64,000 nucleotides of DNA, taken from positions 24,345,001 through 24,409,000 of the forward strand of contig JASXTE010000005.1 in the NCBI GenBank assembly GCA_030280995.1, given 5' to 3'. How positions within the stretch are numbered: position 1 is the stretch's first letter; each line of letters opens with the position of its first letter. Below the pieces are notes generated by a model, which was not told where the DNA came from, searched no databases, and saw nothing but the letters and a program-made list of their open reading frames with translations. The DNA comes from Hemileia vastatrix. Its lineage: Eukaryota > Basidiomycota > Pucciniomycetes > Pucciniales > Zaghouaniaceae. This document shows positions 3,659 to 47,554 of the stretch, piece by piece. The position numbers were made by a program, and so were the translations under genes.

Positions 3659-3699
3659 CAACTCATCAACTTTATTCGATGACGATTTAATCTTTTCAA

Positions 3700-6913: not shown

Positions 6914-6937
6914 AATAAATTATAAAGTAATTAAATT

Positions 6938-6967: not shown

Positions 6968-7010
6968 TGTCTCACGCTCAACGGAGCTTGCGTTTTTATA
7001 CCCGGGCATC

Positions 7011-7813: not shown

Positions 7814-7956
7814 GAAGGGATATAGTAACAGTCTCTGATTTGCTGTAGTAAGTAAATCTCACATGGTGTTTCTCAAAGGGACAGGGGGTTTTCTCTCCAT
7901 TTTTACTCCAAATCCCTTGGTCAAGGCCTATAGCTAGTACTATAGGATTGTCTACA
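7814..7956 (+). mobile_element. Truncated LTR of family C, plus orientation
   Basis: Read on the minus strand from 7956, this starts TGTAGACAATCCTATAGTAC and matches the end block of the GYP-C LTRs (10855.. and 44336..). It therefore lies in the opposite orientation to GYP-C. It interrupts CHV-2 pol right after the IHPVFL codons and is itself cut at 7814 by CHV-1. It is more diverged from the GYP-C LTRs than they are from each other. Confidence 0.75.
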
Positions 7957-11992: not shown

Positions 11993-12633
11993 ATGTTCAA
12001 CCTTCTTCCTAAACATGCCTCTGAAATTGGTCCTTGCCAATACTGCATTGACAATAATCTAATCTGCGTCATGACACCACCTGTCTATCCATACAGAATG
12101 TCCTGCAATGTCTGCCAATCTAGAAAGTAGCCCTGCTACAGACCTGGTCCATTATTTTACGCAACAGATTCACCTCCACCTCAACCTGGTCCATCTTCTA
12201 CCAGCACCAAAAGATCTAGGCCATCCATCCTGATACCCAGATTAATCAAAAAGCTTCACCCTTCCCAGAAGAGTGCCACAACCCATAAAACAACAAGTTC
12301 CACCATCCCTGGTCCATCTGATGGTAAAGAACTTTCATTTCTTCCTTCAACTTTAAAACTGATGACTTCTCAGTTCCTCCATCTTCTGATAGTGATGATG
12401 ACAATGTAGGATCCATTGCACCACCAACACCAAACCACTTTCCCATTATCAAGACCAAGCTCCAACAACACACATCTCAACAAAAACACCTTCTGCTAAA
12501 CTACTTCCAATCCACTCCTGCTAGAGATCCACAGGACATCGAGAACAGAAGACACCTCATTCACCAGTTCAAGGCTAATTCTGAACACTTCATTTCATCT
12601 CTTTATTCCCTCTGTAACTCCACTAGTACTTGA
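11993..12633 (+). pseudogene. GYP-C antisense gene B (zinc-cluster protein, one stop)
   Basis: Two exons on the strand opposite to GYP-C: 11993-12323 and 12374-12633, with a 50-nt intron GGTAAAG..TTCTCAG in phase 1. Joined length is 197 codons. Six Cys in the order CQYC-X6-C then CNVC-X6-C form the cluster. A TAG at 12128-12130 lies inside the second half, just before its last Cys, and is the only break I see. The middle is Pro/Ser/Thr-rich. The end carries LLLNYFQSTPA followed by a basic helical stretch that aligns with the end of GYP-E gene B (YFQ.TPA....D...RR.L...F). ATG 11993 was chosen because upstream codons lie in the LTR. Function unknown; a DNA-binding regulator is inference. Confidence 0.65.
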
Positions 12634-20596: not shown

Positions 20597-21305
20597 GAGG
20601 CAACAATTTGCCTCATCTTATGCTTTGTGGAAAGTCATATGAGAAAGGGGTAGAGAAGTTTCCTACATGCATACATGAGGCGACATGTCACCTCATGTAT
20701 GCATCTTAGATACTTGCTTCCTTTTTGACTTCTGTATTGTTTTAACCTTGGGGATATATTGCATACATGAGGCGACATGTCGCCTCATATATGCATGCAA
20801 GCCACTTGCTTTCTGTTTCACTTCTGCATGTTTTTGAGATCAAGGGGATATTGCATACATGAGGAGACATGTCGTCTCATGCATGCATGCAAGCAACTTG
20901 CTTGCTTTTTTACTTCTGCATGGTTTTAAACTTAAAGATATATTGCATACATGAGGCAACATATTGCCTCATGTATGCAATACAAGAGCACTGATAAAAA
21001 ATAGTGCAATAGATGTTTTTTATCAGCACTCTTGTTATTGCATACATGAGGTGACATGTCACCTCATATATGCAATAAAATTCTTTGAACTTCCTCATTA
21101 AGGTGAGAAATGAATTGGTGAATGCCTACCATACCAAAGAAAATCCACATCATGCAACTTGTTTACATGCATACATGAGGCAACATGTCGCCTCATGTAT
21201 GCATGTAAACAAGTCAAATTCTGGGGAACTCACTTGGTATGGTGGCATGCACAAGTGCATTTCTTACCTATATAAGTTAAACTTCAAAAAAAAAATTGCA
21301 TACAT
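20597..21305. repeat. CAC-1 palindrome array, left part
   Basis: A 36-bp palindrome with half-site TGCATACATGAGGCGACA. Copies are at 20668, 20760, 20852, 20944, 21039 and 21168 (start positions), a seventh begins at 21297, and a degenerate one lies at 20597-20634. Spacing is 92, 92, 92, 95, 129, 129. The spacer at 20980-21038 is itself an inverted repeat (AGAGCACTGATAAAAAA .. TTTTTTATCAGCACTCT). Spacers left of 21168 are in one orientation and the one right of it is in the other. The 4-bp ACAT at 21302-21305 is the GYP-E target duplication. Confidence 0.9.
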
Positions 21306-22500
21306 TGTGGTAGCCTAAAGTTTAGTACGGCACCTAAATATGTAAATGGAGTTATCACGGCATGCAAGATTGGTGTTATTATTTTTTTTTAAAAAGGGGT
21401 TTTATTTAATTTATTGGAGTTTTAAATATGAAGAAATTGGTCACGAGCAAATGCCTACACGAAAACAATTTATTTTGCGGAGAAAACTTATTTTTACGGT
21501 CTGAAAAATTTATAAGTATTAAGTCGAGTCACTCAAGAACCTTGGGAAATTTTCCCAGAATTTTTACTATTTTTCTTATATTTTTAAATGAATTTTAAAG
21601 TTTTATAGAAATAGTTACGTTTTTCAAAAATTACTTAACTTTGATGAATTTTCACGGGATAATTAGAGCTGCGCAGACTACGAAAATTAGTTTGGTAGGT
21701 AAAGGGGAAGTAGCTCTATTATGTGTAATTTTTCTAGATTTTTTATTATGGTTTTAAGGTTCTAAATTGAGTCCGGAAGTCCGGACAGACTCCGTTTCGA
21801 CTCCGTACGGACTCCGTACGGACTCCGCTTTGACTCCGCTTTGACTCCGTACGGACTCCGTACGGACTCCGTTCCGGCTCCGTACGGACTCCGTACGGGC
21901 TCCGGATTGACTCTGGAAGAGCTCTGGAGGGGAAAACTTAGGCACGTGACTAGGAATACTTAAGCGACTCTCAAACTCGAAATTGAGGGGGGGGACACAT
22001 CATACAGCTTAATCATTAACCACCACAGTCTCATTTTTTATTACTCAACAAATTAAAATAACTTGTAATACCCTTATAACATTATTATATTTTATATATA
22101 ACATTTTAGAAATACTACTCAACAATTTAAATCACACTTCATACAGGGTATCTTTAGAAAGGTCTTCATCGCTGGGACTTGATTATTGCTGTCTCATATA
22201 AATTTAAAATATTATAAAAAACATAAAAGTCAATCTTTACAGATCTTTCACTGGTACACCTTAATTGTTGTTATCAGTATTTCTTTCTCAACAGCCACTT
22301 TCTTTTAATCTCAATAAGCGTTAAATATTTTAGAGTTTCATTATTTTTTATCAATCAGATCCAAGTAGATTGGTTAGCTTAGTGATTTAGAATTCCCATT
22401 TTGTTATTTTTATTGGAAGGACGGGGTTTTCAGCTAAATCCACATATCTCCTCCGGATTCTGCTTACAGCAAGGCAACTGTAAGAGTTTACCTTACCATA
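21306..22500 (+). repeat. GYP-E 5' LTR
   Basis: 1195 bp, TGTGGTAGCC to TTACCATA. The ends are an imperfect inverted repeat and the last base pair departs from the usual CA. It contains a 12-bp tandem repeat (21782-21905) and ends with a GGACGGGGTTTTC block also seen in the other giant-element LTRs. Confidence 0.92.
21782..21905. repeat. 12-bp tandem repeat in GYP-E 5' LTR
   Basis: About ten copies of a unit GACTCCGTACGG with variants GACTCCGCTTT and GGCTCCGTACGG. It is CpG-rich within AT-rich DNA, and CCGTACGG is palindromic. The 3' LTR copy (34322-34441) is shorter by about one unit. Confidence 0.85.
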
Positions 22501-22502
22501 GT

Positions 22503-22519
22503 TGGCGCCCAACGTTGGG
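22503..22519 (+). other. Primer binding site of GYP-E, tRNA-Lys-like
   Basis: TGGCGCCCAACGTTGGG starts two bases after the LTR. It resembles the TGGCGCCCAACGTGGGG site complementary to the tRNA-Lys 3' end used by several retroelements. GYP-C has TGGCGCCCAATGTGGGG at the same place. The match to this organism's own tRNA is not checked. Confidence 0.7.
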
Positions 22520-22677
22520 TTCGATTTCTCTAGCTTTCTTTAAAAGACTTACTTGGATCAAGAACGTTATTAGCCTGCAAGAGGCTTATTTTCTGGAACT
22601 CTAATTGGATTTTTGTTATTGGCCTGCAAGAGGCTTGTTATTTTATTGATTGTTAACGCTTCTCATTACTTATTGGG
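22520..22677 (+). other. GYP-E leader with duplicated hairpin
   Basis: Untranslated leader before gag. GCCTGCAAGAGGCTT occurs twice (about 22574 and 22621), forming a GCCT/AGGC stem with a short loop. It is similar in form to the hairpins within and after pol. Confidence 0.5.
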
Positions 22678-25287
22678 ATGTCTTCTTCTGCTGTTGCTTC
22701 TGGATCTTCTAACCCTCTTACTCCCTCAGTTAGAATTGTTTCTTGGGATGGCCCAAAGTTTGATGGGGAGGAGGTTAAATGGTTCATTAGCAGGTATGAA
22801 GCTGCTGCTGCTGTTGATGGTGCTTCCCATGTGGATATGGTGAAGCAAGTTAGATTTTTTATTGCCGATAGGGAGGTGGAAAAAGAGGTTATTGCTATGC
22901 AGGCATTTAAGGACAAGGATTGGGTTAAGCTTTCTAAAGCTATGGTTGATAGATGGGGTGTTAGGTTTACTATGATGGACCTCAACAAAATTGTAGGTGA
23001 CTGGCAAGCTAAAGGTGGTGTTTCTTCAATGGTGGACTTCAAAAAACTTTGTGTTCAGTTTGATGAAGTGGTAGAATATCTTATATTGGTGGATGAATTA
23101 GTGCATGAAAATCAAGCAAAAGATTTGTTTTGGTCAGCATGCAGTAGGGATATTCGAATGGACGTCTTGAAGGATCTCTCAAGAAAGAATTTAATGAAGG
23201 AACTGCCAAACGGTGAGCAGAAGTTACCGGCTCTGGAGGTTATTAAAGAGAACATCCAAGCCCATCTAAAGTTATTAGCGTTGGACAAGTATCAAGAGTC
23301 TTGCACTCAATATGTCAGTAAGGTTAGCGAAGTTTTGGCCGAGAACAACGATATTATGGTCAAAGCCCAGGAGGCCAAGAAGGCACAAATGGGTGTTCCT
23401 GCTGCAAAAGTTGAGGGCAATGTAGACAATAAGATGGTCGATCACTTGGCCGATTTAACGAAACAATTAAAAATATTTGTTCAAGAGACTCAGAAGGCCA
23501 ATAAGGCCCCAATCGCTTCTTCGTCGACGTCGACTTCTTATCAGTCCAGAGGTTATGAACGTCGAAATTATAATGGCAATAACAACGGTAACCGCTTCCC
23601 AGGCAATGGGAGAAATGGTGGGAATGGTGGTAATGGATATAGAGGTGGCTATGATGAGCCAAAGGTGTGCTCCTATTGTAATAGGAGGGGTCATAGAGCA
23701 ACAGTTTGTTTTGCTCTTGATAAGGATATGGATGCTGGGCGAGTTTTATTTGATGGTAAAGTTTATAAATTTCCCGATGGTTCGTTCATCAAGCCCAGTG
23801 ATGGACAGTCTCCTTCTGATTTGGTCAGAAGAAGTTTAACGGCTGAAAGGAGAGCCAGATTTGAAGAGGTGACGGATGAAGATGTTAATGCCAAGAGTGG
23901 CAAAAATGGTAATGGTAATGGTGGTAAAGCTGACAAGGGCAAGGAGAAAGAGGTCAGTAAAGCCACATTTTCTACTTCTTTTGGTGGTTTAGAGCTGGCG
24001 ACGGTTGCCCAGGTGGAGGGTAGCTGTATGGCTGGCGAATATGATGTTAATGCTGCTAGAAGAGCAGCTGCTACTAAGGCGAAAAGTAGCATTCAGAGCC
24101 AATTGAGGGCTAATCCTGGCAAGGCCAATAACAAAGTGAACCCTTACTCTAAGGACAAGAATTCTAGTGCTCAAACTGCCGCCAACAAATTGAACCCTTA
24201 CTCTAAGGACAAATTATATAAAATGCAGAAGGGGATTGCTGATATGGGGCCCCCTAGTTATGGCAAGTTTGATTTAAATGGTGAGCCTATGCCAGAGGAT
24301 GATTCGGATTCTGAGGAGGACGTACCGTTGGCGTCTCTACCCAGACCAAGTTTTAGCGGTCCCATCCCAATGGAGGGTGTAAGAAGGACTAGCGATGGAT
24401 CAGGATTAGTGCAAGAAGCTGGTGACGGAGTTAGGGTTATAGAAAGAGAAGATGTTATAATGGGGGGTGAAGATGGCTCGGTTGGACCTCAAGAGGTACC
24501 CAGGGCCAAGGTTGTTAAATCAAAGGTCCAGTATGAGCGGCCAGTAGTCTCTGGTCAAGCTAATGCGATGGACGCAGTTTTGAATAGGGTGAATCAACTT
24601 CAGATTCCCTTATCTTTGGGGGAGTTATTTACGATTAGTCCGGCGCTTGCTGAAAAGCAAAAGAAGCATTTGACGAGGCGTCGGGTTTCCACTGGAGAGG
24701 TGGAATATATTTGTGAAAATGCTGAAAAGTTTGGGGAAGATGTAGATACGCATTTTTCCGCTCCCCTGGGTTACCTGGTGGTAACTCTTAATGGTAAAGA
24801 AGTAAAGGCCTTGGTCGATTCAGGGTCTCAAATTAATTTAATTTCATTGGAGCAAGCGACGAGTATAGGCTTGCCAATTAAAAGTGGAACTGGGGGAAAC
24901 CTCAGAGGTATTGGAGGGCATGCAACAGAGCTAATGGGTACAGCTGAGCATGTCAGGTTAGGCATTGGTGGATCTGTTGGTAAGGTTCACTTTTATGTGG
25001 CCAGAGGAGCAGTCAAAACTGTTCTTGGTGGTCCTTTTTTGATGGATTTTGAGGCCAGGATAGGGTATCAAGCTGGCATGGGGATTAGTTTGGAGATCAC
25101 TGGTGAAGATATGCGGAGGTTACATATGCGGTTAGCGCCTCCTGGAGATGAAGGTTGGGAAACACGGCCAGGGATTACTACTCTGTGCCAGTGTTGTGTT
25201 TGCACCAAGAAGCGGCATATAAAACGGACGGCTTCTGGTGAATTATGTTTGTCGGAAAGGGATGAATGCCCTCATTTTTTGGGGTAG
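22678..25287 (+). CDS. gag: GYP-E Gag with C-terminal aspartic protease (869 aa)
   Basis: Gag forms the particle and binds genomic RNA; the fused protease processes Gag and Pol. Residues 1-300 are a capsid-like helical region beginning after a short Ser-rich leader (WDGPKFDGEEVKWFI). A Gly/Asn-rich stretch precedes the zinc knuckle at residues 331-344 (CSYCNRRGHRATVC, a classical CX2CX4HX4C). The middle is charged and has NPYSKDK twice. The protease active site D-S-G-S is at residues 714-717, with a VLGGPFLMDF strand about 70 residues later. It is fused to Gag rather than to Pol. ATG 22678 is the first in-frame start after the leader. It overlaps pol by 22 bases, and pol is in the -1 frame. 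Confidence 0.92.
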   Translation: MSSSAVASGSSNPLTPSVRIVSWDGPKFDGEEVKWFISRYEAAAAVDGASHVDMVKQVRFFIADREVEKEVIAMQAFKDKDWVKLSKAMVDRWGVRFTMMDLNKIVGDWQAKGGVSSMVDFKKLCVQFDEVVEYLILVDELVHENQAKDLFWSACSRDIRMDVLKDLSRKNLMKELPNGEQKLPALEVIKENIQAHLKLLALDKYQESCTQYVSKVSEVLAENNDIMVKAQEAKKAQMGVPAAKVEGNVDNKMVDHLADLTKQLKIFVQETQKANKAPIASSSTSTSYQSRGYERRNYNGNNNGNRFPGNGRNGGNGGNGYRGGYDEPKVCSYCNRRGHRATVCFALDKDMDAGRVLFDGKVYKFPDGSFIKPSDGQSPSDLVRRSLTAERRARFEEVTDEDVNAKSGKNGNGNGGKADKGKEKEVSKATFSTSFGGLELATVAQVEGSCMAGEYDVNAARRAAATKAKSSIQSQLRANPGKANNKVNPYSKDKNSSAQTAANKLNPYSKDKLYKMQKGIADMGPPSYGKFDLNGEPMPEDDSDSEEDVPLASLPRPSFSGPIPMEGVRRTSDGSGLVQEAGDGVRVIEREDVIMGGEDGSVGPQEVPRAKVVKSKVQYERPVVSGQANAMDAVLNRVNQLQIPLSLGELFTISPALAEKQKKHLTRRRVSTGEVEYICENAEKFGEDVDTHFSAPLGYLVVTLNGKEVKALVDSGSQINLISLEQATSIGLPIKSGTGGNLRGIGGHATELMGTAEHVRLGIGGSVGKVHFYVARGAVKTVLGGPFLMDFEARIGYQAGMGISLEITGEDMRRLHMRLAPPGDEGWETRPGITTLCQCCVCTKKRHIKRTASGELCLSERDECPHFLG

Positions 25288-28200
25288 CAGGGGCTGATCG
25301 CTCAAATGTTGTAATCTCTCCTCAGGATGAGATCCCGGATTGCAATAGGTCAGCTCACTTGGAGATAATTCAAGTGGATTCTCAATTATTTTCTGTTAAT
25401 ATTACTTTGGAGTGCAAATACGTTTTGGACTTTTCTATATGTTTATTGGATTTACCTGGTTTTTCTATTAAATTTAAAAACGGTGAAAAAGGCAAAATGG
25501 GCCAAATTAGGTTGGATAAAAATTGGAAGGGTATGTTTATGGACCTCCAGCAAGAGGTTAAACTGCAAATATCACATCAAAATCCGATAAAAAATCTCAG
25601 TATAATTAAAACCCAAAATAATAATTTTTGTGAAAATTCAATTCCGGTCCTCCAGCAAGAGGTTAAACTGCCAACTTTCTTTACGGGTGATTTACTGTTG
25701 GATAAGGGAAGCAAAGGTGTTGGAAAATCTGTTTATAAATTAGACGAGGGAAAGGAGAAAAGGGTAAAATTTAAAAATGAAATAAAATATTTTTCTAATT
25801 TTTCTTATTCTGATTCTGGCGATGAAGAAGATTCATTTGATGAAAGTTTTAATGGCGATACAAAAGTAAATGATTTAACTCAAGTTAATTTAGATGTGGA
25901 CGCAGCCAAATATAAGAAAGTAGCAAATAAAGTTAGACCTATTAATGAGCCGCTACCTGCTGAATTAAATCCACCTTTGAGAAGACCAAGGTTATCAAGA
26001 GATCCTTATGAAAGTCCCTTGGTAAAGAATCCGCCTGAATTTTCTGAGACGTCAAGAATCACTTTTGAGAGACTGGGTGTTGTTAATTTTGGACCTGATG
26101 GTTGGTTGTCTGGAGAAGAGAAGAAGTTGTTGTTGGATGTGATGGTCAAGCGAGAGAAGGCCATTGCTTTTGTAGAAGAGGAGAGGGGTGTGTTGAAGCA
26201 TTCCTATGGGGAGCCTTACAAGATTCCTGTGGTATGTCATGAACCGTGGCAGCAGAAACCGATTCCTATTCCGGCTGCATTGAAAGAAGCTTATATCGAA
26301 GTTGTCAGAGAACGGATACGCACTGGACTGTATGAGCAATCAACGTCAAGTTATTCTAGTCCGGTATTTTGTATCAAGAAACCGAATGGCAAGCTTAGAG
26401 TTGTTCATGATCTTAGGGAATTAAATAGGGTTACAATAAAGGATGCTGGGATACCACCTAGTGCTGAGGAGTTTGTTGAAGCGTTTGCAGGGAGAGTGTG
26501 CTATGGATTGGGAGATATTATGGGTGGATATGATGAGAGAGAGTTACATCCGGACTCAAGGCCTCTCACTACATTCGATACGCCACTTGGACGTTTACAG
26601 TTAACAAGATTACCTCAAGGAGCAACAAATTCGGTTGCAGTTTATCAAGCTCAGATGGCTTGGATCCTTCAAGATGAAATTCCACAACATGCTGGAATCT
26701 TTATAGATGATGGAGGAATTAAGGGACCAACAACCGACTATGATAACCAGGTGTTGGAAGAGAATCCCGGGATACGCAAATTCATTTGGGAGTTTGCAAT
26801 TACTTTAGAAAGAATCTTGTTTCGAATTGAAGAGGCTGGTTTAACTATTTCAGGTTCAAAATTTTCATGTTGTGTGCCAGCCTTAGAAATATTAGGCCAT
26901 GTGGTATGTAGAGAGGGTAGGATTATGTCCAAGAAGAAGGTTAACAAAATTCAGTCCTGGCCAAGACCCAAGAATACGACCGAAGTTAGAGGGTTTTTAG
27001 GCGTTTGCGTATATGTTAGAATGTTTATCAAGGACTTTTCTTCATTGGCAGCTCCATTGAGACGGTTAACGAGAAAGGATGCAGACTGGGAATGGGATGA
27101 AGAGTGTGAGAAGGCGTTTGTGAAGTTGAAGGAGGTTGTAGGGAAGGATTTAGTCCTGCACAAGTTGGATTATGGAAAAGGAGCTGGCAGAATTTATTTA
27201 GCAGTTGATTCAAGTCAGGTTGCAGCTGGGGCGGTTTTGTCTCAGATGGATAAAGCTGGTTACATCAGGCCAGTTAGGTATGAATCTGTAGTATTTACTG
27301 AGGTCGAATCAAGATATTCTCAACCAAAATTGGAATTATGTGGTGTGGCGAAAATACTGAAGAAACTTCAGCATATTTTGTGGGGGCAACATTTTGAGTT
27401 GCAAGTGGATGCGAAATCGTTAATCCAGATGATTAATTCCCCAAGTTTACCGAACGCACCCATGACGAGATGGGTAGCTTTTATTCAACATTTTTCATTT
27501 GATTTAGTTCATAAGCCTGGCAAAACTTTTACTATGCCAGATGGTTTATCAAGGAGACCACCCACTGAAGAAGATTCAGACTCAGAAGAGTTCGATGAAG
27601 ATATACCTATTATCAAAGCCAGCACTAAAGGAGCTGAAGACTTTCCATACCTCCCCCATGAGGTTAAACTGGCAGGATTATTGTGTTTAGATTATGATGA
27701 TGACCTCCACCAAGAGGATAAACTGGAAAATAGTTTTTATGTTAAAAAAGGTGTTGAAAAAGGTGTAGATAAATTCGGCAGAGAGGAGGTAGAAGAAGAT
27801 GTGGTGTATGTAGAGGAAAATGGATTGGTAGTGTGGGATAGTAGTAAATTAAGGAATGGTGTATATGTTGGAGAATTAGAGAACTTAAATAAAAAGGTGG
27901 ATAAAGAGAAAGAGGTATTTTCAAATACGGTTTTCGAAGGATCCAAAGGTTCAGAAGAAAAACGTCGACATAGCTCGATTAAAGATTTATTTAGGGGTCA
28001 ACGATTATTGGCTCATTCATGTGCAGGTGATATTGGTGATAGAGAAGTCCCTATTGATGTTATATTAATCGATTTTCAAGATGAAGTCTGGGGTCAGACT
28101 GGTTTTTATTTTTTGTTAGTCAAATATTTGTTGACTTTAGAGAGGCCAGAAGATTGTGAAGACGATGAATGGGTGGCTATCAAGAGGAAGTCATCTACGT

Positions 28201-29360
28201 TTTACCTATCTGGTCGACGTTTAATGAGGAGGAGGTATCCAAATCCTCAAGTAGTTATAACTCAAGAGAAGGGGCAAGAATTAGTTTTGAAATCACTGCA
28301 TGAAGATCTCGGGCATAGAGGCGTGGGAGAAACGTTTAGAAGAATTTCTGATCGATTTTGGTGGCCTGGCATGAAGATGGCTGTTAAACAGTGGGTTCAG
28401 TCATGCGAAGAATGTCAAAGACGAAGTTATTTAAGGCCAAAAGAACCTGGACGCGCGACCGGTGAAAATACACTCTTTGGGAGAGTTAGTTTAGATGCCG
28501 TTCATATAAAAGAGGGACGGTATAAATATTTAATTGTGGCCAGAGATGATTTATCTGGTTGGGTAGAGGCAGCGCCTCTTATTAATTTAACTGCCAAAAA
28601 TGTGGCAGAATTTTTTTTGAATAATTGGGTATATAGGTATGGGGTGATGAAGTTGGTAACGGTAGATGGAGGTCCTGAATTTGGGACAGAGTTTAAAGAG
28701 GCCGTATTGAAAGTTGGATCAAAGGTTAGGGTAGCAACCCCATATTATCCTGAAGCTGAAGGCATGGTTGAAAGAGGGCATCAAGTTATTAAGGATGCTT
28801 TAGTTAAAATGTGTGGGACAAGTGCTGAAAAGTGGAGGCACTATTTACCTTTAGTTTTATTTGCTGATCGAATCACTGCCAAAAGGACGACCGGATTTTC
28901 ACCTTATGAACTTGTTTTTGGACAGAAAGCAGTTTTACCGGTTGATTTAGAAGCTGAATCATATCTTGGAGTTGACTGGGACACGGTCAAAACTACTGAA
29001 GAATTATTGTGTGCAAGAATGATGCAGCTAGAAAAGAAAGAAGAATATTTAGAAAAGGCATATTCACGGATGATGAAGATCCGAAATCAATCAGTTAGAT
29101 ATTGGGATGAGCGGTTGGCACATCGATTAAGGAAACCTTTGAACCCAGGAGATATGGTCCTGGTGTATAATAGGAGTTTGGAAAGTCAGTGGGGAAAAAT
29201 GTTTGCAGATAGGTGGAATGGACCGTATAAAATCAAGGAGCAAGTTTCCGGCGGTTCATATGTGCTAGAAGAGTTGGATGGAGTAGTATTGAAGAAGAGG
29301 GTAGCGGCCGATCAAGTGAAACGGTTCTATCCTAGAGGCACCAGGAGTGCCGAAGTCTAA
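25266..29360 (+). CDS. pol: GYP-E Pol: reverse transcriptase, RNase H, integrase (1364 aa)
   Basis: Copies the RNA to DNA and inserts it. The first ~250 residues are family-specific. RT lies at about 330-560: first Asp D417 (GLGDIMGGYD), catalytic pair D481-D482 in FIDD. RNase H: D648 (AVDSSQ), E690 (KLEL), D715 (QVDAKS). Integrase zinc site H1012, H1017, C1047, C1050; catalytic D1077, D1134, E1169 (D,D34E); GPY motif at 1319-1321. No chromodomain follows. It is probably made only as a Gag-Pol fusion by -1 frameshift; the ATG at 25266 is nominal. The peptide L-x-x-E-x-K-L occurs four times (residues 94, 129, 796, 814), encoded by the nucleotide repeat described under findings. All catalytic residues are present, so it looks functional. 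Confidence 0.93.
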   Translation: MPSFFGVAGADRSNVVISPQDEIPDCNRSAHLEIIQVDSQLFSVNITLECKYVLDFSICLLDLPGFSIKFKNGEKGKMGQIRLDKNWKGMFMDLQQEVKLQISHQNPIKNLSIIKTQNNNFCENSIPVLQQEVKLPTFFTGDLLLDKGSKGVGKSVYKLDEGKEKRVKFKNEIKYFSNFSYSDSGDEEDSFDESFNGDTKVNDLTQVNLDVDAAKYKKVANKVRPINEPLPAELNPPLRRPRLSRDPYESPLVKNPPEFSETSRITFERLGVVNFGPDGWLSGEEKKLLLDVMVKREKAIAFVEEERGVLKHSYGEPYKIPVVCHEPWQQKPIPIPAALKEAYIEVVRERIRTGLYEQSTSSYSSPVFCIKKPNGKLRVVHDLRELNRVTIKDAGIPPSAEEFVEAFAGRVCYGLGDIMGGYDERELHPDSRPLTTFDTPLGRLQLTRLPQGATNSVAVYQAQMAWILQDEIPQHAGIFIDDGGIKGPTTDYDNQVLEENPGIRKFIWEFAITLERILFRIEEAGLTISGSKFSCCVPALEILGHVVCREGRIMSKKKVNKIQSWPRPKNTTEVRGFLGVCVYVRMFIKDFSSLAAPLRRLTRKDADWEWDEECEKAFVKLKEVVGKDLVLHKLDYGKGAGRIYLAVDSSQVAAGAVLSQMDKAGYIRPVRYESVVFTEVESRYSQPKLELCGVAKILKKLQHILWGQHFELQVDAKSLIQMINSPSLPNAPMTRWVAFIQHFSFDLVHKPGKTFTMPDGLSRRPPTEEDSDSEEFDEDIPIIKASTKGAEDFPYLPHEVKLAGLLCLDYDDDLHQEDKLENSFYVKKGVEKGVDKFGREEVEEDVVYVEENGLVVWDSSKLRNGVYVGELENLNKKVDKEKEVFSNTVFEGSKGSEEKRRHSSIKDLFRGQRLLAHSCAGDIGDREVPIDVILIDFQDEVWGQTGFYFLLVKYLLTLERPEDCEDDEWVAIKRKSSTFYLSGRRLMRRRYPNPQVVITQEKGQELVLKSLHEDLGHRGVGETFRRISDRFWWPGMKMAVKQWVQSCEECQRRSYLRPKEPGRATGENTLFGRVSLDAVHIKEGRYKYLIVARDDLSGWVEAAPLINLTAKNVAEFFLNNWVYRYGVMKLVTVDGGPEFGTEFKEAVLKVGSKVRVATPYYPEAEGMVERGHQVIKDALVKMCGTSAEKWRHYLPLVLFADRITAKRTTGFSPYELVFGQKAVLPVDLEAESYLGVDWDTVKTTEELLCARMMQLEKKEEYLEKAYSRMMKIRNQSVRYWDERLAHRLRKPLNPGDMVLVYNRSLESQWGKMFADRWNGPYKIKEQVSGGSYVLEELDGVVLKKRVAADQVKRFYPRGTRSAEV
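25275..25281 (+). promoter_or_regulatory. Slippery heptamer for -1 frameshift between gag and pol
   Basis: T TTT TTG in gag phase, two codons before the gag TAG (25285-25287). A -1 slip gives FFGVAGAD, which is the pol frame. Pol has an in-frame TGA just upstream (25263-25265), so it cannot be read from far upstream. The same heptamer sits at the gag end in GYP-C and GYP-F. It has the X XXY YYZ form and differs from the HIV-type heptamer only in the last base. Confidence 0.75.
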
Positions 29361-29930
29361 CTCCGAAATGAGGATAAACTACAATTTTAAATGACTTTTA
29401 TTAAATTTATACCTCCGCAACGAGGATAAACTATGATATCAATGAAACTTTATGGATTCCTCCGCAATGAGGATAAACTATGATATCAATGAAAATTTTA
29501 TGGATACCTCCGCGACGAGGATAAACTATGATATCAACGAAATTTTATGGATTCCTCTGCAACGAGGATAAACTATCTTCTTATTTTTATCAAAAATACT
29601 TTACTATCGTTACACTTCCTATGGGCGACAAAACTATGATGAAACTTAACGAAATTCAAGAAGACCATCTTTGAAATTTTCAAAAACTTAAAATTCTTTA
29701 AATATGGGTGAAGATAGTGTTGGAAAATTTTTTAAAATTTATTGGAAGAAGTGTTCACAGGGGAACCTTCTTAATTTAATATTGGCAAGTGTGGGGGTAA
29801 TTGATGGGCTGGCTGCTCTATACACAATTACCCCATAATGTTCGTTTCCAAAATTTTCCCTGTTTCTAGTTGAATCCTGGCTTTGTCTTTTAATTTTAGG
29901 AAGTCCACTAAGACTATAAACTGGAACGAA
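29359..29930 (+). repeat. Mini-hairpin repeats after GYP-E pol
   Basis: Five units CTCCGCAACGAGGATAAACT-like at about 29359, 29411, 29458, 29506 and 29553, and one related unit AGTCCACTAAGACTATAAAC at 29902. Four-base stems (CCTC/GAGG or AGTC/GACT) close six-base loops before TAAACT. Spacing of the first units is about 48 bases. They match units inside the pol coding sequence. Confidence 0.75.
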
Positions 29931-30260
29931 TCAAGAGACACCGCTCTCAACGCCGGATTCAAGATTTTTTTATTTTGTTTTTTGATTTTTTTATGTTAGA
30001 TTGTGATTTCTTTTCTTTAATATATATTATGAATTAATGTAAAGGTGATGCTCACTGGTGGTCTCTAATCATTTTTATAAATTGGAGGGAGCCCACCCAG
30101 TGATCATCATTATAAAAATTATCTTCTAAAAACTTTCATTTATTTTCTTTTCTTTTCAATTTCTCAAAATTGTGTAACCACATCAAGTTGCACTTGGATG
30201 TGGGTATGATGTCGAGGGTACGGCTCATCAAATGGCCGGGGGGCATCTTTTAAAATTTTT
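29931..30260 (+). other. GYP-E 3' structured region
   Basis: Two larger inverted repeats: CTCACTGGTGG .. CCCACCCAGTGA at about 30050-30105, and CCACATCAAGT-TG-CACTTGGATGTGG at 30178-30203. Both are conserved in GYP-F (about 58950-59010, 58856-58881) and GYP-C. No ORF is seen. Confidence 0.6.
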
Positions 30261-30421
30261 TTTTAAATTTTTTTTTATTTATTACTTTTTTTTAACTTTC
30301 TTTTCACACTCATTTATCTTTCTTTAAAAATTAAATTTTAACTTTTATTTCAAAACTATCTTTTCTAAAATCTTTTATTTTAAATAAATAAAAATAAAAA
30401 AAAAATAAAATAAAAAATAAA

Positions 30422-30472
<51 letters not shown>

Positions 30473-30660
30473 AAAAAATTAAAAAATTAAAATTAAAATA
30501 AAAAAATAAAATAAAAATTAAAAAAAAAAAATAAAATAAAAAAAAAAAAATAAAATAAAATAAACTAAAAAATAAATAAAATAAAAAATAAAAAAAAAGA
30601 TAATAAATCATAAAAAAAAAAAAATAATAATAATAAAAGGTATTTTAGTTTTAGGTAGTT
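30260..30660 (+). repeat. A-rich low-complexity tract of GYP-E
   Basis: T runs followed by about 250 bases of A and AAAATAAAAT repeats, including a ~50-base uninterrupted A run at about 30422-30470. Its exact length may be unreliable in assembly. Confidence 0.85.
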
Positions 30661-30723
30661 TAGATGTTTATATTTTATTTTTCAAACATTATTCAAGAAA
30701 GCTACATACCAGGAAGAGCACCA

Positions 30724-31738
30724 TCAAGGGTTGTTATCTTTTGAAGAATCGAAATTAGAAAATTTAGAAGGACCTTGATCGATTTCCTGGGATTCGAATC
30801 TTATTTCACGGTCACGATAGTGTTGAAGCCAGTTGGCTATTTTGAAAAGGTCTCTTAACAGTTGCTCTCTCATCCAAGATTCTGATCTATCAGAGGGCGG
30901 GTATCGTTGGAAATAAGCGATAAGGTTATTAAAATTGGCAAAAAGCTTTTCAGACACTAGGTGAATTGGAACTCTAGGAAAGCTTGGATTAGGTTCTGGT
31001 AGTTCATAAGCAGAATATGAAATTGGAGAACCGGTGGACGCTTATCAAATTAAAATATCAGCAAATTAAAACCTGAAGATTAAGAAAATAAAAAAGAGAC
31101 AACTAACCTGTGTCAACACTATCATGATCATAGATAAATGGCTTACTTGGTAATGGAGTGGGATTTTTTATGTTTAGAAAAGGATTTTTTATTTTTGATA
31201 GATGAGGAGGACTGGTGTTGGATTTGGTGTTTGAAGTAGATGTTCTGGGCCTTTTGGATGATACAAGAGAAGATGAAGACTGCTGGCTATTATAGGACCT
31301 TTTGTGCTTCAAGATGTTGGAAGAAGGAGAAGAATTGTTAGAAGGTTGAAGCATGGCCCTGGGAGCAGCAATAGTTCTTGGGGGAGTAGCAGCAAGTCTA
31401 GATTGGAGAGAAGGACCCAGAGGATTAGGTGATGGAGAAAGGTTTAAATAGGCTGATGGAGAAAAAGGTATGGGATCTTTAGAGGTTGATGGAATAGGTG
31501 GTGGAGTAGAAGGTGAAGAAGAAGGAGGAGGATTGCAGAAGGCGGCGAAGCTAGTAGCAGTGATGGGGAAAGAACCACAGTTCAAGCCAGAACATTTTCT
31601 TTTCTTCTCATAGCAGGATAAACAGGCCCTGTTATAAGTGTGCTTTTGCCAGTTAAAAGAGAAGATACATTCCCTATGGGTGAAGGCACAATATTTGCAA
31701 GATTGATCAGCTGAAGCAATGAAGTCAGAAGGTTTCAT
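30724..31738 (-). CDS. GYP-E antisense gene A: permuted zinc-cluster protein (315 aa)
   Basis: Two exons, 31738-31108 and 31040-30724. The 67-nt intron (GTTAGTTG .. TTGATAAG) is in phase 1, and joining keeps one open frame of 316 codons. The N-terminus has six Cys at residues 14, 17, 24, 39, 42, 49 (CX2CX6CX14CX2CX6C); the second trio, CLSCYEKKRKC, is the basic one. In Gal4-type proteins the basic trio comes first. A long Ser/Pro-rich linker follows. Exon 2 carries a helical segment (VSEKLFANFNNLIAYFQRYP .. REQLLRDLFKIANWL) that may mediate dimerisation. It lies antisense within the retrotransposon between pol and the 3' LTR. It could be a nuclear DNA-binding regulator; that is inference. GYP-C has a homolog at 13214-14755. 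Confidence 0.7.
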
Positions 31739-32460
31739 CTTGTTAGGAGATATTTTTTTTTGAAGAAGAAAATTTGAAACTAGGATGAAGAAAGCTGGTG
31801 GCAGAATCTGGGTTCAAGGATAGAGAAGTTGTTAGGTCCACCAAAACCTTAAACTGGACTGTTATCAAGCTGTTGGGTCCACCATGACCTTAAACTGGAT
31901 TTCTTATCGATTAAATGTTTGGTCCACCATGACTTTAAACTGGTAGTTCATTCATTGTTTAGTCCACTATGACTTTAAACTGGAAAATTAATATCTGCAG
32001 GATAATTCAACATTCATGGGTCCACCATGACCTTAAACTGGATTTCTTATCGATTAAATGTTTGGTCCACCATGACTTTAAACTGGTAGTTCATTCATTG
32101 TTTAGTCCACTATGACTTTAAACTGGAAAATTAATATCTGCAGGATAATTCAACATTCATTGGACCACTATGGCCTTATACTGGATTACTTGTCGATCAA
32201 ATGTTTGGTCCACTATGACATTAAACTGGATTAACAAATTTATTCAATCTTTGGTCAAGCCTAGGCCTTACTTAGGAATATATCAAGTTATTTATGCACC
32301 TAAACGATCTTTGGTCCACCAAGACCATAAACTGGCAATCGATTAAATGTTTGGTCTACCAAGACTTTAAATTGGAATGTCAATCTTGTTTGGATAACTC
32401 AATTCAATCTTTTAATTTATCACTGTCCACTAAGACTCTAAACTGGTTATTCAATTATTT
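31739..32460 (+). repeat. Mini-hairpin array of GYP-E 3' region
   Basis: About twelve units GGTCCACCATGACCTTAAAC-like, for example at 31835, 31875, 31919, 31961, 32018, 32062, 32101, 32161, 32204, 32311, 32351 and 32422. Stems vary as GGTC/GACC, GGTC/GACT and AGTC/GACT. About 143 bases (31874-32016) are repeated almost exactly at 32017-32159. No coding sequence. Confidence 0.75.
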
Positions 32461-33029
32461 CTGGAATTGGGTGCTGATAGCTTTAGGAGGTTAAAATTTT
32501 AGGTGGTAATGATGCTAATGAAAGCATAATGGTGAATTAGGTGAAATTTGTGGCGCTTTAACATGGTCTAAAGTTGAAATTATTATTGGAAGCCTGGCAA
32601 AAGTATTTTATGGGTTTGCTGTATAGCAAAGTTTGAAAATTGTGATGAAGGAATCAGAAGTTAGGATGGTAGTTGGATTTTAGGGAATGATTTTTTTTAG
32701 TGCCTCATAGTTAGGCCATTTTTTTTGGTGTGAAGCTTGGAGGACCTTATGGCGAGATTGGAATCATAGAATTCGGCTCAGTGGGGGGCCCTATGAGGTT
32801 GGAATCAGGAGTATTCGGCTCATAGGAAGATCCACTCTCTCAATGCTGTGACAAGAAGGAAGACTGGTATATGGGAGTCTGAAGGGATTCAAACCTTGCT
32901 CTCAGTAGTGGAATCATCACAAGATTTATTTTATTTTATGTTATATCAAGCCAGAGAAGAAAGAAAACATCATTTATGTTGAAAGTTTAAGAAGACCAAG
33001 CAAAAACAAAATTTTATCAAGTTATACTG
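32461..33029 (+). other. Conserved noncoding stretch of GYP-E
   Basis: No gene is seen. Sequence at 32480-32930 is conserved, reversed, in GYP-F at about 57670-58060, including CTTGGAGGACCTTATGGCGA and GGGAGTCTGAAGGGATTCAA. That marks it as an old part of the element, not random filler. Confidence 0.5.
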
Positions 33030-33725
33030 TTAGAAAAGATAATTTCTTTGAAATTGTTCAACATCATTATCAAAGCTTTGCATTAAAATTCTTCTTTTCA
33101 TGAGGTCTTCATGGTTATTAGCTGGAGTTTCTTGAAAATAGGCCAGCATTTTTCGTTTCAACTCATTAGTAAAGTCAAGAAAAAGATAGCGATGAAAATT
33201 TGGGTAATGATTGATATAGTCCGTCTTCACTCTACCAACATCATCAGTGTTGGTTATTTCGACAGCTAGAAGTTCAAATATGTTATTAAGTCATAGGTTT
33301 AGTCAATTTTGATTAAAAGTTTTTTTTTTTAGTAAGATAAATAGGGTCTTACATTTAGAGCCAGGAAACATAGTCTCAGCAAAGTTAGTTGGGGGTACTG
33401 GCGTTATAGGATTAGGATCTTGTGAAGGCAAAATTAGGCCGGGATCCGTTGATGAAGATTGAACTTTTGAAGCTGTTTTTGATCTTATTCGTTTTAAGAA
33501 GACAGGAATTTTGGATCGCTTTTTAGAAGTTGAGGGATCAGGGAGAGCTGCTGGTCCTAAATATACGTTTGTTTTAGAAGGAACTATTGGCCGGTTGCAT
33601 TTGACTTTTTTCACACGGCATAAGTCGCAAGCTGTTCTGCCAGGAAGATTAGGGTTGGACATTAAACAAGGTACCTGGTATCGAGCGCAGAGTTCACATG
33701 GAGCGACAAGTTCTTTGGAAGACAT
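33030..33725 (-). CDS. GYP-E antisense gene B: permuted zinc-cluster protein (202 aa)
   Basis: Exons 33725-33353 and 33265-33030. The 87-nt intron (GTAAGACC .. AACTTCTAG) is in phase 1 and the joined frame is open. Six Cys at residues 10, 13, 20, 33, 36, 43 (CX2CX6CX12CX2CX6C); the second half ACDLCRVKKVKC looks like the first half of a Gal4 cluster. A Pro/Ser/Lys-rich middle follows. Exon 2 has ELKRKMLAYFQETPA and a basic-acidic helix that aligns with GYP-C gene B. Its start codon is 126 bases from the 3' LTR, with the CATTCY pair in between, so it may be transcribed from the LTR-proximal region away from the LTR. The role is unknown; a regulator of element or host transcription is a guess. 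Confidence 0.7.
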
Positions 33726-33820
33726 ATTGATGAAGATGAATTTTTTTTAGTTGATTAAAGAAGATGGTGGTTGAAGGTTAAAGATGAATATTGTGTTCAA
33801 CCACTTATGCAAAGTTTTAA

Positions 33821-33850
33821 GAATGGGGACATTCTCGATTGGAGGGAGGA
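33821..33850 (+). promoter_or_regulatory. CATTCY inverted pair and polypurine tract of GYP-E
   Basis: GAATG-GGGA-CATTC at 33821-33834, then GATTGGAGGGAGGA directly against the LTR (33837-33850). Both parts recur in GYP-C and GYP-F. The purine tract is the expected plus-strand primer. CATTCY is the core recognised by TEA/ATTS factors such as yeast Tec1; its use here is inference. Confidence 0.6.
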
Positions 33851-35034
33851 TGTGGTAGCCTAAAGTTTAGTACGGCACCTAAATATGTAAATGGAGTTAT
33901 CACGGCATGCAAGATTGGTGTTATTATTTTTTTTTAAAAAGGGGTTTTATTTAATTTATTGGAGTTTTAAATATGAAGAAATTGGTCACGAGCAAATGCC
34001 TACACGAAAACAATTTATTTTGCGGAGAAAACTTATTTTTACGGTCTGAAAAATTTATAAGTATTAAGTCGAGTCACTCAAGAACCTTGGGAAATTTTCC
34101 CAGAATTTTTACTATTTTTCTTATATTTTTAAATGAATTTTAAAGTTTTATAGAAATATTTACGTTTTTCAAAAATTACTTAACTTTGATGAATTTTCAC
34201 GGGATAATTAGAGCTGCGCAGACTACGAAAATTAGTTTGGTAGGTAAAGGGGAAGTAGCTCTATTATGTGTAATTTTTCTAGATTTTTTATTATGGTTTT
34301 AAGGTTCTAAATTGAGTCCGGAAGTCCGGACGGACTCCGTTTCGACTCCGTACGGACTCCGCTTTGACTCCGCTTTGACTCCGTACGGACTCCGTACGAA
34401 CTCCGTTCCGGCTCCGTACGGACTCCGTACGGGCTCCGGATTGACTCTGGAAGAGCTCTGGAGGGGAAAACTTAGGCACGTGACTAGGAATACTTAAGCG
34501 ACTCTCAAACTCGAAATTGAGGGGGGGGACACATCATACAGCTTAATCATTAACCACCACAGTCTCATTTTTTATTACTCAACAAATTAAAATAACTTGT
34601 AATACCCTTATAACATTATTATATTTTATATATAACATTTTAGAAATACTACTCAACAATTTAAATCACACTTCATACAGGGTATCTTTAGAAAGGTCTT
34701 CATCGCTGGGACTTGATTATTGCTGTCTCATATAAATTTAAAATATTATAAAAAACATAAAAGTCAATCTTTACAGATCTTTCACTGGTACACCTTAATT
34801 GTTGTTATCAGTATTTCTTTCTCAACAGCCACTTTCTTTTAATCTCAATAAGCGTTAAATATTTTAGAGTTTCATTATTTTTTATCAATCAGATCCAAGT
34901 AGATTGGTTAGCTTAGTGATTTAGAATTCCCATTTTGTTATTTTTATTGGAAGGACGGGGTTTTCAGCTAAATCCACATATCTCCTCCGGATTCTGCTTA
35001 CAGCAAGGCGACTGTAAGAGTTTACCTTACCATA
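33851..35034 (+). repeat. GYP-E 3' LTR
   Basis: 1184 bp, TGTGGTAGCC to TTACCATA, nearly identical to 21306-22500 except for one fewer unit in the 12-bp repeat and a few substitutions. ACAT follows. Confidence 0.92.
34322..34441. repeat. 12-bp tandem repeat in GYP-E 3' LTR
   Basis: Same GACTCCGTACGG-type units as in the 5' LTR, with one unit fewer and two unit-level differences. Confidence 0.8.
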
Positions 35035-35520
35035 ACATGAGGCGACATGTCGCCACATGTATGCATGTAAAAAGGTTCCATGATGTGTATTTTCTTTGGT
35101 ATGGTAGGTATGCACCAATGCATTGCTCACCTAAATGAAGGATTTCAAAGAATGTTATTGCATACATGAGGCGACATGTCACCTCATGTATGCAATATAT
35201 CCTTAAGTTTAAAACCATGCAGAAGTAAAACAAAAAGAAAGTTTCTTGCATGCATACATGAGGTGACATGTCGCCTCATGTATGCAATATATCCTGAAGT
35301 TCAAAAACATACAAAGGTAAAAAAGCAAGCAAGTTGCTTGCATGCATACATGAGGCGAAATGTCTCCTCATGTATGCAATATACCCTTGATCTCAAAAAC
35401 ATGCAGAAGTGAAACAGAAAGCAAGTGGCTTGCATGCATACATGAGGTGACATGTCGCCTCATGTATGCAATATATCCTCAAGATTAAAACCATACAGAG
35501 GTAAAAAATCAAGCAAGTTT
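35035..35520. repeat. CAC-1 palindrome array, right part
   Basis: Continues the array cut by GYP-E. The rest of the seventh palindrome is at 35035-35065, and full copies start at 35159, 35251, 35343 and 35435. Spacers here (ATATATCCTTAAGTTTAAAA ..) are the reverse complement of those in the left part, so the whole array is a large inverted repeat. Variants affect mainly the two GCG/CGC CpG steps. Confidence 0.9.
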
Positions 35521-35645
35521 CTAACAAGCATAGTGAAGGTTCAAATTTATAAAAGAAGTCAGGTAAGAATCTTGATTTTATTACTTTAAATAAGTTATTA
35601 TAAATTAAAATCACATCTTTATACTTTCCTGATTGAAAAATTAAC

Positions 35646-44335: not shown

Positions 44336-45424
44336 TGTAGACAATCCTATAGTACTAGCTATAGGCCTTGACCAAGGGAGTTGGAGAAAAACCCGAGAGA
44401 AAATCCCCTGTCCCTTTAGAAAAATAAGTGAGATTTACCTGCTACAGTAAATTGGTTCCTGTTTTTCTAAAGACCCTTTTCCAATACACTTGACTGCTTG
44501 ATGAGCCAAGAAAGTAGTCACCAGAGAGACTACCAGACCAAAGAACTGAAATGTAGACCAATGTCCACACCAGAGACAGCAAAGATACTTGATGTAGGCT
44601 GCAAATCCACACCAGAGACAGAAATAATACTTGCTATAGCTTGCAAGACTATAACAGAGAAAACAGTTTCCAAAGTTAAGTTAAATGAAGAACTCACTTG
44701 CAACAAACACAGCCAATTGTGGCCAGAAAACAGTGAAAACTGAGTGAGGAACAATGATATCACCTCCAGATGGTTGTATGATGATTAAGGTTGCCCAAAC
44801 TGTCTTATTCACTATATACACACAGACCACTATCAAAGAGCCCATGCGCACCCACCAATCTGGCGCCTGTACCTGCCAAATTGCATAAAAAACCCTCCAG
44901 AAGAGCTCCCCAACCTTCTAAAACAGAGGCGGGTGGGCCGCCTGACGTCGGAGGTGCCGCCTGAAACGGCACGGCCTCCCTGAAGCCAGAGAACCACTAA
45001 AAACACCCAATCTACTTAGAAAAACTAACTACAACTACTAAAACCTTTAAAACACGGAATTTCACTATAACAACATTGGGACATGAAATATAGAGAAAAA
45101 TTAGCTCTATCCAACGGTACTAAGCACTTAACCCTAAGACTTAAGGTTAGCCCGTAAAACAAAAAACAAAATTAAACAGCTATCTTTTTAAATGAAAAAT
45201 GAGGAAATGACCCCTTAAAACCTAGAATATGAAAAATGTCTTCAAGACATTATATATAGAGAAAAACTGGGGCTATCCAATGATAGTACCCACATACCCA
45301 CAGACCCAATATCCACAGATTAAAACCAGAAAAATACATAATTCATTAACAAATGTCAATTAAGACATGCATAAACAACGCCAAATCACGCAACAAAGGC
45401 CCCTGCCAATGTTGGAAGACCACA
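44336..45424 (-). repeat. GYP-C 5' LTR
   Basis: 1089 bp partner of 10855-11944, with TGTAGACAATCC and GACCACA ends on the plus strand. A TATATATA-like box reads on the minus strand near 45248-45259. CCGG follows at 45425-45428. Confidence 0.9.
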
Positions 45425-46149: not shown

Positions 46150-47150
46150 TTACTCCCTGCTAAAAAGTGTCCTTGTGAGGTTTGTCTGACCTTCAGGGGG
46201 GTAATTTGGCCACATCAAACTACTTATATTTCCATGATTGACCAAAACATTATCCTCATTTCCATCTAAAGAGTTGATCTCATCTGACTGTGGCTGATCA
46301 AAGGGGTCCACCACAAGTTTAGCCAAAATTTTGGTGAACACTTTTTTGATAGATATTGACTAACTGGTGCTTTCTGAAATTGTCCACCTGAAGTTAGGCT
46401 AAACTTCAGGAGGATAAATTTATTATGAATACCAAACTAACTGAAGAATACTTTTGCCCTAGCTACTCTGCATCATAAAAGTGTCCAACTGAGATTTAGC
46501 CATAATTCAGGTAGACACTTTTGGAAAGGCACAGTCTGATGGTTTTAATATCTATATATGGCAATAAGTATCAGTTTTTTATCAACATGGAACTAGAATT
46601 AATTTAATATGGCCAAAGTGTCCACCTGAAGTTTGGCCAAAATACAGGTGGAAATTTTTATGAGGATTACTTGATGAAATGAAGACAACTTGCAATTACT
46701 TTCCATCATAAAATTTTAAAACTTAAGTTTATCAAAAATTGTGGTGACACTTTTGCCAGATCCAGTCATATGGGATCAACTCTCTATATGGCAATGAGAA
46801 TCAATTTTTAGTCATTCATGGCATTAGAAGTAATTTGATATGGACAAACTTTACACCTAATTTTTGGCCAAAAATAAGTTGGAGAAGTTTATGAGGAATA
46901 CCAGATTAACTAAAGAAGACTTGCACCCTACTACTTTCCATCATAAAAGTCTCCACCAGAAGAATTCTCAAACTTGTGTTTGACACCATTGGCCTGGTCC
47001 AGCCATATGGGATCGATTCTGCATATGGAAATGAGGATTTAATTTGGTCAATCATGGTACTAGAAGTAATTTGATATAGACAAAGTGTCCAACTAAATAT
47101 TGGAAAAAAATCAGTTGAAAACTTCATTTAGATTTTCAAAAAATCAAATT
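46150..47150. repeat. Diverged satellite units at the left of CAC-2
   Basis: Decayed inverted motifs AAAGTGTCCACCTGAAGTTT .. and relatives near 46165, 46485, 46613, 46720, 46845, 46944 and 47084, spaced about 100-130 bases or multiples. They match the secondary, weaker palindrome present in each 608-bp unit. Confidence 0.6.
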
Positions 47151-47554
47151 AATTACAATTTTATTCCTGATGATGCCCATTTTATCCAACACCTCTTCTG
47201 AGCCTTGAAACTAGGCATTTAGCTTGAATTTTTAATTTCATATAAAATCCCTTTTATTCAACCTATTTCTTTTTATCCCTTTTTTTTCTTTTAGATATCA
47301 ATTAATTTTATGTAAAACAAATCATTTTCATAATTTTTTACCTGTATTTAATAAAATTATTAAAGGTTTAAAATCACCCTGTAAGCATTTGGCACATGTT
47401 TTTTTGCTATACTAATAAAAATAATAATATACTGGTGACAAAAAATTGATCAAATGATAGAATATTAATAAAACAGAAAGATCAAATACCAGTGGATATG
47501 TTTTAAAAAAATACCAGTTGCACTGAAGAAGAGCTGAACCCTAGATACTCACCA

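Follow-up and report, generated by a model that had tools for sequence, protein, structure and literature searches.

Paired antisense zinc-cluster genes between pol and the 3' LTR of giant Gypsy elements in Hemileia vastatrix

Why would a long terminal repeat (LTR) retrotransposon carry, between pol and its 3' LTR, two genes that read against the direction of the element itself? The question is raised by GYP-E, a giant Ty3/Gypsy element in a 64,000-nucleotide stretch of the Hemileia vastatrix genome (GenBank assembly GCA_030280995.1, contig JASXTE010000005.1, positions 24,345,001 to 24,409,000 of the forward strand), which we call the window and whose first letter is position 1 of all coordinates given here. 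A sequence-only reading of the window had proposed that the two genes, here A and B, encode the element's own regulators. We describe the anatomy of A and B, the conservation of their splice sites, the purifying selection acting on them and the similar layout met with again in another Gypsy clade, and we then weigh what the proteins might do, concluding that in the clade of GYP-E and GYP-C they probably form an element-encoded accessory regulator system that is antisense, spliced and of zinc-cluster type.

Anatomy of the antisense genes

GYP-E is assigned to Ty3/Gypsy by its LTR pair, gag, protease, reverse transcriptase with RNase H, and integrase. The LTRs align over 1184 positions with 1180 matches, 4 mismatches and a single 11-nt gap, and ACAT flanks the element at both ends. 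In pol, the domains RVT_1, RT_RNaseH and Integrase_H2C2 score above cut-off and the rve core below it (29.3 against 32.6). The parts of the element are as follows.

21306-35034, plus strand: GYP-E, whole Ty3/Gypsy LTR retrotransposon
21306-22500, plus strand: 5' LTR, paired with 33851-35034
22678-25287, plus strand: gag with aspartic protease, intact 869-aa open reading frame (ORF) with Asp_protease_2 and RVP
25266-29360, plus strand: pol (reverse transcriptase, RNase H, integrase), intact 1364-aa ORF
31738-30724, minus strand: gene A, 315 aa, between pol and the 3' LTR
33725-33030, minus strand: gene B, 202 aa, between pol and the 3' LTR
33815-33850, plus strand: palindrome AGAATG-N4-CATTCT with an adjoining purine-rich tract, directly before the 3' LTR and upstream of B
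33851-35034, plus strand: 3' LTR, paired with 21306-22500

The paired, spliced genes first noticed in GYP-E are confirmed. Gene A consists of exon 1 (31738-31108), a 67-nt intron (31107-31041, GTTAGT..AAG) and exon 2 (31040-30724), and gene B, which begins 126 bp away from the 3' LTR, of exon 1 (33725-33353), an 87-nt intron (33352-33266, GTAAGA..TAG) and exon 2 (33265-33030); both introns are GT..AG and phase 1, and both proteins carry six ordered cysteines in the arrangement CX2CX6C-X12..15-CX2CX6C. Counterparts had also been claimed, in the same order and orientation, for GYP-C, a minus-strand element between whose LTRs GYP-E is nested, and they are indeed present there between pol and the 3' LTR.

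10855-11944, minus strand: GYP-C 3' LTR, pairs with 44336-45424 at 94.5% identity
13214-14755, plus strand (antisense to the element): GYP-C gene A, intron 14271-14339 (69 nt, phase 1)
11993-12633, plus strand (antisense to the element): GYP-C gene B, intron 12324-12373 (50 nt, phase 1)

All four genes thus have a phase-1 intron, although both GYP-C genes are broken in this copy, with stops in A exon 1 and a stop within the B cluster. The LTRs of the two elements differ, there being no match between them among those listed in a self-comparison of the window at 1e-20. The proteins are nevertheless homologous: in alignments scored against 500 shuffles each, with exon 1 represented by its first 75 residues, the E and C versions match at z 14.5 for the A cluster, 12.3 for the B cluster and 15.5 for B exon 2, the last bearing out the shared C-terminal blocks reported for gene B, and at z 4.0 for A exon 2, the weakest of the pieces compared. 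A regular expression for the double CX2CX6C triad finds nine places in 264 kb (the window plus 20 flanking stretches from the 200 kb around it) against 0, 0 and 0 in three Markov shuffles; three of the nine are the window clusters of E-A, E-B and C-A, and four lie outside A/B elements.

The AGAATG-N4-CATTCT palindrome before the 3' LTR is also found in GYP-C and in the neighbouring sequences L030 (where one arm base differs), L037 and L039, despite their unlike LTRs; it may serve as an operator for B or, as RNA, form a hairpin close to the plus-strand primer. GYP-E is further bracketed by inverted repeats with 92-bp tandem units (20668-21198 and 35035-35532), and the element seems to have inserted near the middle of a palindromic repeat.

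Copies, selection and recurrence in a second clade

Exon 1 of the GYP-E gene A has at least 150 copies at 97-100% identity in the 747.6-Mb genome, with an internal stop in two of the best 150 matches, a sample that, scored as the best 150 of 7462 loose candidates, is biased to good copies; exon 1 of C-A likewise has at least 150 close copies. Twenty E-type copies (L009-L028) were picked from the best 150, mainly from the lower-identity rows, ascertained on A exon 1 only. Insertions or deletions affect the A intron in 19 of the 20 and A exon 2 in none, and they are equally absent from A exon 1, a count that is biased by the use of that exon to find the copies. Among the 15 copies with B, they occur in the intron in all 15 and in each exon in one; many intron events are shared runs and are not independent. 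With the window included, GT..AG is retained in 21/21 A introns and 15/16 B introns.

The ratio of nonsynonymous to synonymous change (dN/dS) is not near 1, a value that would have spoken against the proposal: it lies at 0.18-0.25 for A and 0.46-0.57 for B among E copies, and at 0.29-0.34 for B among C-type copies, B in young copies being the weak spot. The pooled value for E-type gene A is 0.18 (29 sequences, 28 loci and the window, with the bias noted for exon 1), and A exon 2, on which copies were not ascertained, gives 0.25 (21 sequences) against 1.13-1.64 in four other frames. For E-type gene B, L025 and L027 were set aside because of gaps; the 14 remaining, gap-free sequences, one of them from the window, give 0.47, and B exon 1 gives 0.46, the lowest of its frames. 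For C-type genes the values for exons 1 and 2 are 0.25 and 0.22 (A) and 0.34 and 0.29 (B), from three or four copies per exon in the 200 kb around the window with stop codons skipped; the inclusion of broken copies pushes these ratios upward. Against a diverged copy in L037, the C-type B exons give 0.19-0.30. By these comparisons, A and B are genes under purifying selection.

The four places outside A/B elements at which the double-triad expression matched are associated with a chromovirus, which carries an antisense gene of its own.

628-5136, plus strand: window chromovirus, the repeat 7549-7814 being taken as its LTR
5987-6913, minus strand (pieces 6913-6581 and 6298-5987): chromovirus antisense double-CX2CX6C gene, before the repeat 7549-7814

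The gene lies 0.8-0.95 kb past the chromodomain in all five members examined (the window, L033, L036/L037 and two in L042/L043), defined by a chromodomain at least 75% identical to the L042 query; a window copy truncated in the chromodomain (8051-7872, 47%), distant chromodomains at 31-35% (L036, L038) and an orphan copy of the antisense gene in L048/L047 are uncounted. Its two coding pieces have dN/dS 0.12 and 0.24, and an apparent GT-AG phase-0 intron between them was picked out by eye in the two copies inspected. A TATA-like box stands upstream in the three copies inspected for it. The region 6914-7033 and its equivalents in L042 and L043 share this box and a palindrome-like stretch containing GTGAC, and the shared region is a candidate antisense promoter. 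The antisense zinc-cluster arrangement recurs at the same position in a second Gypsy clade; homology between the two kinds of cluster is not established (hhalign probability 6%, E 0.006), and the TAAACT-type motif described below was not found in four chromovirus 3' regions.

A six-frame control was applied to six coding pieces, four of A/B and two of the chromovirus gene, and the annotated frame had the lowest ratio in all six; the mirror frame, which shares third positions, gave 0.25-0.46 and the other frames 0.88-3.76.

Zinc cluster and a repeated sense-strand motif

The spacing of the six cysteines (two CX2CX6C triads separated by 12-15 residues) is that of a Zn2Cys6 domain, and in an alignment of six sequences, which omits decayed C-type copies and includes the B of L037, the six cysteines and one lysine are invariant. 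Matches to the Pfam profile PF00172 are partial: E-B exceeds the curated cut-off (25.8 against 21 bits) over profile positions 1-15, pieces of E-A (13.6), C-A (16.5) and L030 B (19.8) fall below it, full-length E-A has no match to the profile at E <= 1, and no A or B protein reaches a whole-domain score. The first half of the profile (1-16) matches the second triad in E-A, C-A and E-B, the second half (16-35) matches the first triad of L030 B, and the two half-matches are never seen together in one protein. In Zn2Cys6 proteins the basic, DNA-contacting half comes first and the other half second, an order with which alignments of GAL4 and PPR1 agree. A and B share with these proteins the six cysteines and an ACDxCRxxKxKC-like half, but their basic half stands second, so that the cluster resembles a Zn2Cys6 domain with its halves in swapped order. 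The nearest solved structures are weak matches (PPR1, PDB 1pyi, E 0.0079; GAL4, 1aw6, E 0.36). Pfam scans at E <= 1 listed no other domain in A or B beyond a chance-level DUF3489 for the E-A cluster piece. The AlphaFold model of the B cluster is poor (predicted local distance difference test, pLDDT, 61), and for B exon 2, modelled by itself, three helices are predicted with a mean pLDDT of 82.

A candidate for what such proteins might recognize is a short motif, [CG][TC]C[CT]-N5-GA-N3-TAAACT, which has 100 sites in the 264 kb against 0, 0, 0, 0 and 1 in Markov shuffles. All 100 sites point in the sense direction as judged by the nearest clade marker, and the motif is found in 11 of 12 sequences bearing clade markers and in 0 of 9 lacking them, with 10-19 copies per element (19 in GYP-E, 10 in the window GYP-C, 17 in the E-type element of L031). 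In GYP-E these include three groups.

25545, 25650, 27651 and 27705 (25545-27724), plus strand: four copies in pol, encoding L-x-x-E-x-K-L
29361-29574, plus strand: five copies of the class CCTC-N6-GAGG, beginning directly after the pol stop codon
31836-32446, plus strand: array of 12 copies (at most 6 mismatches; 9 by a stricter pattern) of the class AGTC-N6-GACT-N-TAAACTG, between A and B

The two arms of the motif covary around a partly constant loop, and the 3' TAAACT is constant as well. Among 302 TAAACT sites, 92 have paired arms, a number that falls to 2-15 when one arm is shifted by 1-3 bases, and the pairs include AGTC/GACT (42), CCTC/GAGG (32), GGTC/GACC (6) and GGTC/GACT (5). Of 59 GTC-class sites, the outer pair is A-T in 44, G-C in 6, G-T in 5 and unpaired in 4; of 40 CTC-class sites, it is C-G in 33 and unpaired in 7. 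Genome-wide there are 71,856 exact matches to GTCC-N5-GAC-NN-TAAACTG, a count that is low if anything because the pattern required one extra base, and 54,365 to CTCC-N5-GAG-NN-TAAACT, or 126,221 in total, against 259 and 365 (624) for the mismatched arm combinations, so that paired forms are about 200-fold commoner; reversed controls gave 0, 11, 39 and 28. Since the sites were copied from few ancestors, the covariation reflects only a small number of independent changes, to which the variation at the outer pair adds.

Within pol, the codons of the motif are more uniform than the background for leucine (37/44 against 362/672, Fisher p 4e-5), glutamate (20/20 against 440/595, p 0.003) and lysine (18/19 against 391/523, p 0.03), in a test whose sites are non-independent and whose motif positions were selected for matching. 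To judge from these codons, the motif is held at synonymous sites. A cause at the level of the peptide (LPHEVKL) is disfavoured, since codons of the conserved residues exceed background and residue 5 varies among V, G, D and A. The peptide (LQQEVKL and variants) is itself repeated in frame in N-terminal pol, with two copies at 25545-25650 of the window and four at 2102-2403 of L031. Because of the strict sense orientation and the covarying arms, a hairpin formed by the genomic RNA is the favoured identity of the motif, which may alternatively be a directional DNA site; in either form it is, by co-occurrence, a concrete candidate target of A and B.

Elsewhere in the window, a related minus-strand element, GYP-F (57532-63998), has 3' pieces matching at 77-83%, in which the double-triad expression gave no A or B cluster. 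A satellite repeated in tandem about every 608 bp, in numerous diverged copies, occupies 46400-54830, and a tandem array with a 19/38-bp period lies at 56749-57166.

A probable regulatory role and its alternatives

Anatomy, splice sites and selection give good support to the view that two conserved antisense zinc-cluster proteins, probably made from spliced transcripts, are encoded by the element; a regulatory role of these proteins for their own element is plausible. Each gene would give a spliced antisense mRNA, translated into a protein with an N-terminal, swapped-order Zn2Cys6-like cluster and a short C-terminal exon; the proteins would bind nucleic acid and be nuclear regulators specific to their element, working through activation, fine control or anti-silencing. 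To reason from the retrotransposition cycle, the antisense orientation would protect the introns from loss during copying of the sense RNA, because the sense genomic RNA would remain unspliced at these sites. The motif may belong to the same system, although we consider this rather unlikely: the 10-19 copies would be address tags in pol codons and the 3' non-coding region, read by A and B as RNA or DNA for self-recognition, the AGTC/GACT and CCTC/GAGG classes would match the two proteins, and the second Gypsy clade would have acquired or kept a similar antisense zinc-cluster gene.

Several observations weigh against a conserved regulatory pair. Cluster cysteines are lost in L039 B and L029 A, stops fall at a cluster cysteine in L029 A and L040 A, and another lies within the L037 B cluster. 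Relatives of A and B were absent from a set of 5.8 billion proteins (E <= 1, 1 and 0.1) in searches that reach only proteins with identical 5-residue words. The mirror frame of E-type A exon 2 (0.22) is slightly under the coding frame, and E-type B exon 2 has 0.57 in its own frame, which is not the lowest (other frames 0.50-1.01). Single ratios for close C-type pairs scatter from 0.11 to 1.78, the highest being B exon 2 of the window against L029 (1 synonymous and 6 other changes). Kinship between A and B is weak: their clusters resemble each other (z 3.7 in E, 5.1 in C), and a common origin may be suspected, likeness in exon 2 being present for E (z 5.0) and absent for C (z -0.4). Constraint on gene B is weak, and young copies have often lost the gene. 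It has in-frame stops in 6 of the 14 gap-free sequences, window included, and of the 20 E copies, all fetched for having A, 15 carry it and five do not. Breakpoints in these five agree within about 20 bp (approximately 33062-33081 to 33794-33798), pointing to one shared deletion, and the B-less line has therefore multiplied; B is either dispensable in cis or provided by other copies.

The alternative that survives best, although we hold it doubtful, is that A and B serve a step other than transcription, such as handling or packaging of genomic RNA, nuclear entry or target choice, with the motif as an RNA hairpin bound by A, B or Gag. The unbroken sense orientation of the motif, and arms that covary around a constant partial loop and TAAACT, are what an RNA stem-loop would show. 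The resemblance of the clusters to DNA-binding Zn2Cys6 domains speaks against it, as do the 4/59 and 7/40 unpaired outer pairs and the fact that the motif is tied to A and B by co-occurrence alone. Regulation, anti-silencing and RNA handling are indistinguishable by the present sequence analysis. Much less probable is that antisense transcription alone matters, through double-stranded RNA or interference, with the proteins incidental; antisense promoters of LTR elements can yield non-coding RNA, according to the available text of PMC7264820, but this would leave codon-level selection in the antisense frame, retained splice sites and exons almost free of indels to be accounted for. Slightly less probable again is that A and B are passengers, transcription-factor genes that the element captured from its host: the cluster is like that of host Zn2Cys6 factors (PF00172, 25.8 bits for B), but place, order, orientation and intron phase are identical in the diverged families E and C, selection is seen between copies, and E-A and C-A exon 1 each have their 150 or more close copies. 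Chance antisense ORFs, which skewed low-complexity sequence such as the middle of A can yield at length, are very improbable given the six-frame control and the finding of no sense ORF of at least 150 aa in 30724-33725.

Element-encoded regulators of this general kind have precedents. HBZ of human T-lymphotropic virus type 1 (HTLV-1) is a spliced antisense gene that starts near the 3' LTR and encodes a nuclear regulator, a bZIP protein. Genes A and B resemble it in being spliced, antisense and near the 3' LTR, and differ in that HBZ is a bZIP gene of an animal retrovirus; no kinship is implied. For the fungal gene brtn, the source is said to be Zhao et al. 2011. It is described as an antisense extra gene of the Botrytis elements Boty and BcGypsy1 in passages of PMC7264820 and PMC8365987 that cite it, the former also placing an antisense promoter in the HTLV 3' LTR. 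As far as those passages go, brtn shares with A and B the antisense placement in a fungal LTR element, by which alone they are likened, and differs in being a single named gene of an ascomycete. The claim that no such fungal system had been described should be toned down in view of brtn, an antisense gene of a fungal Gypsy element having been published; of the zinc-cluster type, no instance was found in the literature searched (titles and abstract openings of open-licence papers). VANDAL transposons belong to another class than LTR elements. The available text of PMC5735166 reports that their anti-silencing VANC proteins in Arabidopsis have targets frequently arranged as tandem repeats in elements of their own kind, with binding tested; the likeness lies in a transposon-encoded protein with repeats in its own element, which in our case is co-occurrence of motif and protein only.

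A close parallel is the plant Gypsy lineage Retand, for which the available text of PMC11963269 describes a long region between pol and the 3' LTR with antisense ORFs that carry a predicted DNA-binding domain, TRP28, and a suggested regulatory role, roughly half of the elements examined having tandem repeats in that region. Position, DNA-binding-type domain and repeats agree with what we find, whereas the hosts are plants, the domain is not a zinc cluster (TRP28, PF04195, was not listed for A or B in Pfam scans at E <= 1) and, by the same text, the repeats are family-specific, one motif core here being common to several families and present within pol. The word 'intron' has no occurrence in the main text of that paper, nor do 'antisense', 'zinc' or 'additional ORF' in the main text of a study of transposable element bursts in rust fungi (PMC12210899). 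With Retand and brtn as precedents, antisense extra genes in LTR elements are already known; the present system would extend retrotransposon-encoded antisense regulators from plants and retroviruses to a fungal genome rich in transposable elements, and to two Gypsy clades within it. Because the elements are so numerous, and many of their copies nearly intact, existing RNA data should allow the long-standing question of the role of antisense extra genes in LTR elements to be tested here.

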